A DNA stretch of 64,000 nucleotides from Chytriomyces cf. hyalinus JEL632. Lineage: Eukaryota > Chytridiomycota > Chytridiomycetes > Chytridiales > Chytriomycetaceae. The stretch is from the NCBI GenBank assembly GCA_025435555.1, contig JAIWWG010000077.1, positions 106,206 through 170,205 on the forward strand, given 5' to 3'. Position 1 is the stretch's first letter. Each line of letters starts with the position of its first letter. The notes under the pieces are model-generated. The model was not told where the DNA came from. It did not search any database and saw only the letters and a list, made by a program, of their open reading frames with translations. Positions 4,836 to 32,322 of the stretch are shown piece by piece. The translations under genes and the position numbers were made by a program.

Positions 4836-4987
4836 ATTTTTGTTTCGTTCTTGTCATTGGCTATTTTTCGCAATGAAGAGCGTTTCAGAAGATGCAATCA
4901 ATCACTTGTAATGTGAACAGAACTTCACAAAATAAGTACAATAGAGCCCCCTGCCGCAAAAAGGGTTGAACGTGCGCAAAAGCGATA

Positions 4988-5058
4988 GGTCGTACCCGGA
5001 TTCGAACCGGGGTTACTGGTATCAGAAACCAGGGTGATAACCACTACACTATACAACC
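4988..5058 (-). tRNA. trnQ-CUG: tRNA-Gln (anticodon CUG)
   Basis: The reverse strand folds as a cloverleaf: acceptor GGTTGTA/TACGACC, A box in TAGTGTAGTGG, anticodon loop TTCTGAT (CTG at 34-36) on stem CTGGT/ACCAG, T arm with GGTTCGAATCC. No intron and no encoded CCA. Identical to the tRNA at 10502-10572. It sits between the convergent DAHP synthase and PWP2 genes. Confidence 0.95.
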
Positions 5059-5282
5059 CTGTCGACCATCGAAAAATAGGCACTCCATGAAACTATTGAT
5101 TTTCTCTGCTGAAATCATGACAGTTTATCTTCTCTCGCCTGTGTAGCAACCCATAGACTGGAACCTTCATGACATACATTACCGGTAGAATGCTATAATT
5201 GCGAAATGATTCAGGTAAATGGCTGTCGAAGGGAAATAGAGTGACAAAGTCCCACATTAATTATTTTTTTTTATTCTTTTGT

Positions 5283-10501: not shown

Positions 10502-10572
10502 GGTTGTATAGTGTAGTGGTTATCACCCTGGTTTCTGATACCAGTAACCCCGGTTCGAATCCGGGTACGACC
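10502..10572 (+). tRNA. trnQ-CUG: tRNA-Gln (anticodon CUG), second copy
   Basis: Base-for-base identical to the reverse-strand tRNA at 4988-5058: acceptor GGTTGTA/TACGACC, loop TTCTGAT, T loop TTCGAAT. It also shares an upstream block, TGCCTATTTTTCGA, placed about 11-12 nt before the mature 5' end in both copies. Confidence 0.95.
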
Positions 10573-10590
10573 TCTGGTAAAGGTGTTTTG

Positions 10591-28068: not shown

Positions 28069-31000
28069 TCAGACATCCTGTCCGGTAAACGCAGTGTATT
28101 TGACCTCCACATCCGCCCAGGAGATCCTTTCTTCCACAAGCTCCTTAATGATACGTGTGACGGTGGCAATGTCTTCACGAATCTGCTTGAGCGAGTCGCG
28201 CTCACGGAGAGTAACCGTGCCGTCCTTCACAGTCTGGAAATCAATGGTAATGGCGAATGGCGTGCCCAATTCGTCGTTACGACTGTATCTTTTTCCGATT
28301 GATGCCGCGCTGTCATCAACACGAGTACTCACACCTTCTCGGCGAAGACTATCGGCGATAGACTTGATAAATGGATTGAATTGTTCGTTACTTGAGATAG
28401 GAAGAATCAGCGCTTTGGTTGGGGCAACAGCTGGGTTAAAGGAGAGCACATTGCGTGCTTCATCATCTCCTTCACGAATCCACCAGACATGTTCCAACAG
28501 AGAGTACAGGATACGACCGAGACCGAAGGATGGTTCGACAACGTTTGGAACGTATTCACGAACTGAGAGCGAAGTGATGATTAGGTGAGGGAGCAGCAAA
28601 ATGGATGAATTAGATCAAGCAAGGCGAGAGAGAGACAGAGAGGAGAGAGAGAGATGTCCCCAAAAATCGCCCATATCGAATGCGGAACCAAGAGACCACA
28701 AACGAAAAGAAAAGCAATTCATAAGAGGGGATGAGCCAGAGAGTAAGAAAGAGAAAATGCGGCGAAGCAGTCGGAAAACCCGAAAGCCTCTAGGTGCACC
28801 TTCCCTCCTCCACAACTCAATTCGCAAAGTGACAGAAAAACTCTGTACACGAATTGACCAAACGTGGCGGATATCAAACAATCTGTCACAATATTGCGTG
28901 CTAATGACTCAAGCCTCTCCAACACCGAGCAAAAAGCTGGCAGGAAGACTCGCAAGACAAGAGGCCAACCAGAATAATGAAACGAGTTCACCAAACATTT
29001 GGAGTCTTTCGCTTGGTCTGTCAACCCATGGTAGAGGGATCTAAGGAGCGCGCTTCGATGGGAGTGTGCAGTCGATAAAGTATAGAGGGAGGCACAGAGT
29101 CGAAGAAGTCGAAGGGGTCAAGCACTCACTATGAATTTTCTCCGTCTTTTCGACAACCTCCACCATCTTGTCAGTCAACACATACTTGTTGCCATCCGTT
29201 CCGGTGATGGTGGTGCTGCCATTTCCGGCTTTCAGCTGTGCCTCCAAGGCCTTCAATTTTGCAGCGTCCCATTGGGTCAGACCTTCTTTCATTCGCGCCT
29301 CGTCCCATTCTTCTCCGTCCGCAAGAAGTGTTCCGAGGTATCCCATCACGTGCTTAGCGTTTGCTTTGAATGCAGGCCCGAAAACGGCTTTCTTGACTTC
29401 CAGGATGACTACGTCACGAACGATCGGCTCTGGCAGAGATTCGCGAACAACAAGCTTCTCTTTCGTTGCCTTGGAGTGGGCAGTTAAATCATACGCCGAG
29501 CGGTCGGCGCAGCCGACACATTCAATCCATCCGTAACTTGACAAAATTTCAGCGTCCCACTACGTTGAAATGTGTGAATACAGCAAACGGAAACTGCAAT
29601 CGAAGAATGCAAAAGAGACACTCACACAGTCAGACGCATAATGCGCCATTTCGTTGGCCATGTGCTGTCTGAAGCGAAGCTTGGTTGGGTTGATTCCAAT
29701 CCGCAAAAGGAAGAGGTAGATGCGGCAGATGAAGTATCCCAATGTTTGATTGTTAACAATACCCTGAGGAGAGGCAAATAGACGTTAGCAGATGAACGTT
29801 GGATTCGAAAGACAGGAAAGTGGATTGTAGGAGTAGTTGAATCAGAATACAAGGTCTCTCCATGGTTACATAGTAGTAAGAAGAACGAAAGTCATTGTAT
29901 AAAATTGGGTATCATCAAATTCAAATGGGAGAGGAAATGGATTGGTGCCAGTAAGATTGGGATTCTTTACCTTGGCCACTGCGTCCCCCATTTTCATTTT
30001 AATTGTACCCGCTCCCTTCAGTTGCAGGTCGCCTGGATACAGTGTCAGCTCAATATCCTTAATGGAATCGAACCGAGGATGGTCCTTTTTGAGGGGGTCC
30101 ACGTAGTGCTCAATCTCAGCCATAGTGAACTCTCTCACGCGAAGTAACCCTTGACGCGGTGAAATTTCATTACGGAACGATTTACCGATGGATGCAGAGG
30201 CGAATGGCATTTGGTCTTGGTTTGACTCAAGGAGCCTTTTGAAGTTAAGAAAGTGACCTTGAGCAGTTTCTGGGCGAAGGTATCCCTTGAATTGACCAGT
30301 GGGTCCAATTTGTGTCTCGAACATCAGGTTGAACAGTTTGGGCTCTGTCACATCGTTTCCAGTTTCTGGCGCCTTGATCTCAAGCTTTTGCATGAGCTTC
30401 CATAGATCATCACCTTGGTAGTTGTCGAGCTGGGATTGAAGTCAGCAAGGGCAGAGGCATAGTTGACGATGGTCACGAGAACATACCGACTCAAGGACCA
30501 TTTCGTACTCTTCGCGCATGCCGGCGGCCAGTGGCTCGGGCACTGGTTTGCCTTTTGGAAGCTTTTTCTTGTCAAATGAACCGTTTTTGATGGCCAGGTC
30601 CGTGTCGACGCGTGAGTTCAGCACCTGTTTCACCAAGTGATCTGCACGGAAGATTTCCCCAGTCTTGACATCGCGAACCATGTAATCGGCGAATCTATCA
30701 ACGTGTCCAGAGGTTTTCAGGACAGCTTCTGGGGTCAAGTTGGTGCATTCAATTTCGAGCATATCTTCTTCGAGAACAAAGTGCTTCCGCCAAAGGTTGA
30801 TGATGTTATTTTGGAGCGCAGTTCCTGGTGGTCCGTAGTCAAACAGACCAGTGACACCTGAGGTACAATGACGAGTTAATAACAGTTTTCGTTGAGGACG
30901 GAAAAGAAGGGATGAGGATGGTTGTGAATCAGAATACAAGGTCTCTCCATGGTTACATAGTAGTAAGAAGAACGAAAGTCATTGTATAAAATTGAGTATC

Positions 31001-31732
31001 ATCAAATTCAACAGGAAGGATGTTCGGGTGAAATGGGTTTTTGCAAGTACCTCCATAGATTGCAAATGACGGGGCATAAAAGAAACGCTTAAGCAAGAGT
31101 CCTTCGAGACCAGCTCTGTCGAATTGCTTTTCATTCCTCTTGGCCATACGCGCCTCATTCTCGCTCTTGAGCGCCTTGAGCCGTTCAACGTGAGGTGCGA
31201 CTTGATCCTTGGAGACTTTCTGTGCCTTGAGACCCTTGATCACATCTCCTTGGCGAACGATTTCAGCAGCCAGTGCAGCGTCGTCGAATGTGCTAAACTG
31301 GGAGTTGTCCGTCATGTTTGTTTCTGTCGTTGAGATAACAAGTCAATTTCGAGTGAATCGAATGATAAAAACCAGAGGGAGAGGATTTGGCCCATCTCCA
31401 CCAACGCACACCTTTGGCCCCAGCAGCGGGTGCAGACCAGCCCCAGCCATTCCACACGTATTCCTGCATCTACGAGTACGCGAGAGTGGGAGGCAAGCAG
31501 CAGGGGGTATGTCAGGGAGAGGTGCCGGGATTAGGAAAAAAAGCAAATCCAACCTTGGTTTTTAGGTAAGAAAAAAAGGGGACCGAAAAATGAGAAGATT
31601 TGCTTGACAGGGATGAAACGGCCCGAAATAGAGCTGCTTTCGAGAACGCATCTCACCTGTCAGCTTCTTCAGGTCACGGGAGTGCGAAGAGAACGCCCGC
31701 AGCTGATTCGCTGCCGGTAAAATCCGCGACAT
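28069..31732 (-). CDS. GRS1: Glycyl-tRNA synthetase, probable dual mitochondrial/cytosolic form
   Basis: Class II synthetase (alpha2 eukaryotic type). An upstream exon 31732-31657 encodes [20 protein letters not shown], basic and Ser-rich without acids until its end (mitochondrial presequence). Its ACAG|GTGAGA donor splices across 31656-31324 and enters exon 2 in frame just before a second Met at 31315 ([12 protein letters not shown]), the likely cytosolic start. The N-terminal WHEP-like helix-turn-helix ([20 protein letters not shown]) follows. Core: [14 protein letters not shown] (motif 1 region, across intron 31050-30858), [34 protein letters not shown] (motif 2), [20 protein letters not shown] (motif 3). 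The anticodon-binding domain ends [10 protein letters not shown] at 28069. Introns are long for this window (193, 207, 333 and about 560 nt); two share an 87-bp repeat. Confidence 0.95.
29838..29924 (-). repeat. 87-bp intronic repeat, copy 1 (GlyRS intron 29764-29970)
   Basis: Differs from copy 2 at about one of 87 positions, while the flanking intron sequence is unrelated. The ends form an imperfect inverted repeat: one end reads TGAAT...ATAC and the complement of the other end reads TGAATCAGAATAC. It lies about 45 nt from the donor and 73 nt from the acceptor. Confidence 0.9.
30925..31011 (-). repeat. 87-bp intronic repeat, copy 2 (GlyRS intron 30858-31050)
   Basis: Same orientation and almost same offset from the splice sites (about 38 nt from donor, 66 nt from acceptor) as copy 1. 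Neither copy contains a canonical donor or acceptor at its ends, so it is embedded in the intron rather than being the whole intron. Confidence 0.9.
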
Positions 31733-32322
31733 GGCTTGAAGGGAGACGAAGGCTGAAGACGTGTATTTTGGATGGAGGGATGGAAGGTGGATGAAGTTCG
31801 GAGGTGTTAACGGCGTTAAGAGCTGGAACAGCCGCAATGGCGGAGGGGCAGTGCGATGCGGCTTCATTGCATGCGTTTTGGTATTTAAGTTGTTGATCTG
31901 TTTCTTGTTCTCAGCAAAATGTTGAAAGAAGAACAATGGCCCGAGACATTCAATTGTCGCAACTGTTCTTCGTGTTTTGTCCGACTGAGTTCTGTTCATA
32001 GGCCAGGCGCCACGCTGGAATGCAGCCTCAGGAACTGCGACAAGAATGACAAGAAGGAAGAAGGAAAAATGGCGCAAGAAGCAAATAGAGACAGTTTTAT
32101 AAAGAGCAGCGCATGCTAAGATACAGATGTTGTATGCTGTGTGGAGGAGCCTCGTGGACATGATTTTAATGACTCGCGCTTTTCGCTTTTCCGCACATTT
32201 TACGCATCATAAATTCCGCATCCAAAACGAGGTCTCTTTTCGCACCCGTCACTGCTTGCATAAGACATCTGCGCGGACCCAGTCTGATCCACCGTTACTC
32301 AATCGCAACTGCGTCTGTTCAA
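31733..32322. promoter_or_regulatory. Divergent promoter region between GlyRS and LeuRS
   Basis: 590 bp between the two outward start codons. No gene supported inside; small open frames lack family signal. If GlyRS transcription also starts downstream, for the cytosolic form, that promoter would lie in the first intron (31324-31656). Confidence 0.5.

Follow-up and report, generated by a model that had tools for sequence, protein, structure and literature searches.

We conclude, with high confidence, that two introns of a glycyl-tRNA synthetase (GlyRS) gene encode box C/D snoRNAs of the snR54/U59 family, and that this RNA gene, a putative 18S guide, was probably duplicated within its host gene. 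The two copies were found as a near-identical repeat in the window (the whole 64-kb stretch of DNA that was analysed), and their positions, together with those of the host gene and its relevant introns, are given in Table 1. They are most likely ordinary small guide RNA genes and not a mobile element.

Table 1. The GlyRS gene and its intron-encoded RNA features (positions are those of the window)
Feature	Position	Strand	Details
GlyRS coding region	28069..31315	-	from the start codon (31315) to the end of the stop codon (28069); five introns
CDS intron 1, snoRNA host, 193 nt	30858..31050	-	GT-AG; 40 nt before and 67 nt after the snoRNA
snR54/U59-family box C/D snoRNA, intron 1 copy	30925..31010	-	RF00473, 43.1 bits (under cut-off); matched part 30927-31006
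CDS intron 3, snoRNA host, 207 nt	29764..29970	-	GT-AG; 47 nt before and 74 nt after the snoRNA
snR54/U59-family box C/D snoRNA, intron 3 copy	29838..29923	-	RF00473, 42.0 bits (under cut-off); matched part 29840-29922
CDS intron 5, 567 nt	28563-29129	-	hosts the SNORA53-like candidate
Candidate H/ACA snoRNA, SNORA53-like, in CDS intron 5	28828..29054	-	RF00563, 25.9 bits (under cut-off); a lead only

When the five introns of the gene (193, 57, 207, 66 and 567 nt) are spliced out, a product of 718 aa results. Solved glycyl-tRNA synthetases match residues 16-717 of this product (best E 9.8e-220), and the best-matching chains are presumably human. The exon-3 peptide (156 aa) has one match in the genome. 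The earlier note, made on the same DNA, had located the two repeat-bearing introns exactly, and both have GT-AG ends. Introns 2 and 4 are only 57 and 66 nt long and gave no Rfam hit. On the minus strand at 31324-31732, 5' of the GlyRS start, lies an open start whose leader looks mitochondrial. A splice model in which this leader forms an exon ahead of the GlyRS start gave no in-frame join; dual targeting of GlyRS by way of the leader would be speculative.

The two introns share a pair of direct repeats, 29838-29931 and 30925-31018, that are 96% identical over 94 nt. The tight core of the repeat is 86 nt long and coincides with the two snoRNAs of Table 1; it is identical at 85 of 86 positions, with one difference. 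One further matching base brings the count to 86/87, the figure that had been estimated for an 87-bp block. Judging from its length, a repeat of this identity is far beyond chance. The remaining direct-repeat families within 29000-32000 number three, with units of 20-22 nt. Assembly error is an unlikely source of the two copies because they differ by one base and lie on one contig in unlike surroundings. Beyond the block, the two introns had been called unrelated, and the flanks are indeed largely unalike: their anchored identity is 11/40 on the 5' side and 22/67 on the 3' side, and the local alignment score of the 3' flanks is reached by 100 of 500 shuffles. The 5' flanks, however, have some excess similarity (5/500 shuffles), which may stem from a common C/T-rich composition or be a trace of shared origin. 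Inverted ends had also been noted, and they are present; their sequence is TGAAT..ATTCA, not TGAAT..ATAC. Another nearly identical sequence, a 91-nt stretch starting GTGATGAATATTGTAATTTCAAC, was seen on seven contigs (C10, C12, C130, C135, C159, C210 and C213; as seen in its first 80 letters) and is perhaps a dispersed repeat.

The family assignment begins with Rfam. RF00473 (snR54) is the top-scoring Rfam family at each block and aligns there over the full model (1-87 of 87), on the sense strand of GlyRS. For the intron 1 copy, E is 0.00096 in 4 kb and 0.015 in 64 kb; for the intron 3 copy, the values are 0.0015 and 0.025. Neither copy, at 43.1 and 42.0 bits, reaches the curated gathering cut-off of 50 bits. 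A best hit that is full length yet under the cut-off suggests that the two copies are divergent members of the snR54/U59 family. In a genome-wide RF00473 search, in which 63 of 2521 candidates were scored, the two copies were the only matches listed at E ≤ 1, with 28.9 and 28.1 bits (E 2.0e-5 and 3.5e-5). A weak RF00473 hit alone means little because matches at E ≤ 1, none of them above the cut-off, also occurred in 8 of 14 prokaryotic controls. A second family, snoU31b, aligned weakly at both blocks (21 and 20 bits; E 1.2 and 2.2). Rfam also places two tRNA-Gln(CTG) genes elsewhere in the window, at 4986-5059 (-) and 10502-10574 (+); they have opposite orientations, lie about 5.4 kb apart and score 62.2 bits each.

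Both copies have the architecture of a box C/D snoRNA. On the sense strand, the order of elements is a TGAA stem, the C box TTGATGA, a spacer, the guide ACTTTCGTTCTT, a D'-like CTTA, a second spacer, CTGA and a TTCA stem. The C box agrees in both copies with the consensus RUGAUGA except at the first base, which is T instead of A or G. The D box CTGA is present near the 3' end of both, and the D'-like box CTTA departs in both from the consensus CTGA. The single difference between the copies falls in the spacer after the C box, outside the boxes and the guide. When each 86-nt copy is folded computationally, pairing is predicted between the terminal ends TGAA..TTCA, as is an internal stem within the element, both on raw fold energies. 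With 15-nt flanks added, copy 2 retains GAA/TTC terminal pairing.

The guide points to 18S rRNA. No rDNA was found in this 37.8-Mb assembly, where a search for 5.8S gave 0 matches and AAGAACGAAAGTTA is absent; the assembly apparently lacks rDNA. A search of viral contigs for an 18S stretch gave 0. The guide was therefore matched to a published partial algal 18S of 1017 nt (PMC9460415, in excerpt), which is not the host's own. Against this reference, ACTTTCGTTCTT has a 12-nt Watson-Crick match to AAGAACGAAAGTTA. A Watson-Crick pairing of 12 nt was reached by 2 of 300 shuffled snoRNAs over the 1017 nt and by 1 of 300 over the first 418 nt. If one G-U pair is admitted, the pairing grows to 14 nt, a length that 46 of 300 shuffles reach over the 1017 nt and 31 of 300 over the first 418 nt; the 14-nt pairing by itself falls short of significance. 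The base that pairs with the last A of AAGAA lies five positions upstream of the D'-like box, and this register is that of the RF00473 consensus. Two pattern searches were set aside. A guide-complement pattern had three matches in the genome, namely the two snoRNA copies and one on contig C56, and a backwards control also gave three; the C56 locus had no match to a snoRNA family and only 2 weak unrelated hits, and the match there is put down to chance. A loose C/D pattern (63 matches, against 5 in a backwards control) was too loose for naming genes and was not used.

The position of each copy in its intron also fits a snoRNA that is released by splicing. C/D snoRNAs have their optimal place some 50 nt ahead of the branch point, or about 70 nt ahead of the 3' splice site. 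The distances to the two splice sites are listed in Table 1. Downstream of each snoRNA, only one branch-point-like motif was found, and its candidate branch-point A lies 48 nt past the snoRNA in intron 1 and 52 nt past it in intron 3. The spacing of splicing-dependent C/D snoRNAs explains why the earlier note saw the block at a "similar offset from both splice sites". In Neurospora crassa, the distance between the 5' splice site and a C/D snoRNA is mainly 41-60 nt (PMC2780460, in excerpt).

The repeat, the family match below the cut-off, the boxes, the complementarity of the guide, the intron placement and the copy number in this assembly are observed; from them we infer how the two snoRNAs would be expressed and processed, what they would methylate and by which route they were duplicated. 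Transcription of the GlyRS pre-mRNA would carry both snoRNAs, and each would be released from its spliced intron. The C/D motif and the terminal stem are the elements at which snoRNP proteins act; here they would bind these proteins, and exonucleases would be stopped there. The guide ACTTTCGTTCTT, beside the D'-like box, would then pair with 18S rRNA and direct 2'-O-methylation to the adenosine that corresponds to Am974 in yeast 18S and to A1031 in human. The snoRNA may have been duplicated within the GlyRS gene recently, or the likeness of the copies may have been maintained by gene conversion. We argue for recent copying or gene conversion because the near-identity extends to the spacers.

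The snoRNA reading can be kept while the route of duplication is questioned. The second copy could have arisen at the RNA level, by retroposition of a processed snoRNA, and not by DNA recombination. On either side, the similarity does stop near the snoRNA's terminal stem, as retroposition would predict, but an older duplication followed by gene conversion would yield identical boundaries. The flanks that were examined contain neither a poly(A) tract nor a significant target duplication, and the slight excess of similarity in the 5' flanks would suit copying at the DNA level. In addition, C/D copies that share a host gene are ascribed to recombination in human and to intragenic duplication in chicken (PMC8178906 and PMC2653536, both in excerpt). 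We regard retroposition as an unlikely route, albeit one with some claim to attention.

A related idea is that GlyRS has turned into a multi-snoRNA host in this lineage, with snoRNAs in the long introns 1, 3 and 5 and the other introns minimal, that these include a relative of SNORA53, and that snR54 was copied from intron to intron with boundaries near those of the mature RNA, which would hint at an RNA-level process. The candidate in intron 5 has E 0.0034 in 4 kb and 0.054 in 64 kb, at a score (25.9 bits) that does not reach the RF00563 cut-off of 38 bits. It was the only match listed at E ≤ 1 in a genome search with RF00563 (31 of 1403 candidates scored), in which 2 of 14 prokaryotic controls also matched. 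The sequence of its 5' hairpin fits well. Its fold is no better than that of shuffles (z -0.69; 52 of 200 fold equally well), the inter-hairpin AAUAUU does not fit the H box ANANNA, and the modelled 3' end shows no clear ACA box. The SNORA53-like candidate is thus a lead and not a finding. If it is real, the GlyRS gene hosts three snoRNAs; the multi-host idea as a whole seems to us improbable.

The remaining two explanations deny that the blocks are snoRNA genes. One holds that they are an unrelated structured intronic RNA or a splicing regulator, for example one controlling GlyRS splicing, that is merely snR54-like; the presence of the same element in two introns of one gene and the predicted internal stem would suit it, but the boxes, guide, length, strand and branch-point distance all suit a C/D snoRNA, and we consider it very improbable. 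The other, which has next to no chance of being right, was the headline of the earlier note: an introner or MITE, namely a short mobile element, bounded by inverted ends, that either entered the two introns or created them, which would agree with the near-identity of the block, its short inverted ends and its position within introns, but which is opposed by the count of only two matches to the 86-mer in 37.8 Mb (a lower bound, in an assembly that may be incomplete), by flank words that are not beyond chance as target-site duplications (7-mer null 8.1%, 6-mer null 32.3%), by splice sites that the block, internal to the introns, does not define, by inverted ends that we read as the snoRNA's terminal stem, and by the full-model match to a known snoRNA family. 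The same note had proposed a genome search and had named, as a result that would speak against a mobile element, only these two copies in the genome together with their conserved presence in all relatives; only these two copies are what the genome search returned. The alternatives that it offered, namely a structured RNA under selection and a recent duplication at the locus or gene conversion, were right in kind.

A box C/D snoRNA of this family can be compared with known relatives. Yeast snR54 makes 18S Am974 (PMC8307265, in excerpt), which is numbered 975 in excerpted text of PMC3511168. Like Saccharomyces cerevisiae snR54, which lies in the IMD4 intron, the GlyRS copies are intronic, match RF00473 over its full length and have the same 18S guide core, ACUUUCGUUCU. 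They differ from it in their host gene, GlyRS instead of IMD4, and in being present twice. They differ from the RF00473 family in the D'-like box, CUUA instead of CUGA, and in a score below the cut-off. The N. crassa counterpart of snR54/U59, CD49, guides 18S-Am971 at D' and is likewise intronic; in one table row, for this one gene, CD49 has an additional guide, at D, directed to 26S-Um2682 (PMC2780460, in excerpt).

The closest parallel to the duplication is in human. SNORD59A and SNORD59B (U59A/B) are both located in ATP5B and target 18S A1031 (PMC3766210, in excerpt); they resemble the GlyRS pair in the Rfam clan CL00065, in the 18S target, which for GlyRS is predicted, and in occurring as two paralogs within a single host. 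They differ in the host, ATP5B as opposed to GlyRS, and the copies in GlyRS are almost identical (85/86). The duplications in GlyRS and in human ATP5B were probably independent. In chicken, one gene is listed in ATP5B, and intragenic duplication is named as the source of nearly all paralogs (PMC2653536, in excerpt). Human C/D snoRNA paralogs mostly share one common host gene, which is ascribed to recombination (PMC8178906, in excerpt), and mobility of snoRNAs between introns is described as general (PMC3511168, in excerpt). The snoRNA genes of N. crassa are mostly singletons, which its authors link to RIP (PMC2780460, in excerpt). By analogy with human SNORD59A/B, the GlyRS snoRNA pair is likely to have arisen by duplication within the gene. 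In a literature search that covered few subscription papers, no paper was found to connect snR54 with an intron of GlyRS.

These results suggest that duplication of an ancient rRNA-modification guide, and not a mobile element, can account for a near-identical repeat in introns. GlyRS would be an added host gene for snR54/U59, one that is unnamed in the literature examined. The GlyRS pair would also represent another lineage, besides human, in which the snR54/U59 guide is carried twice in one gene.
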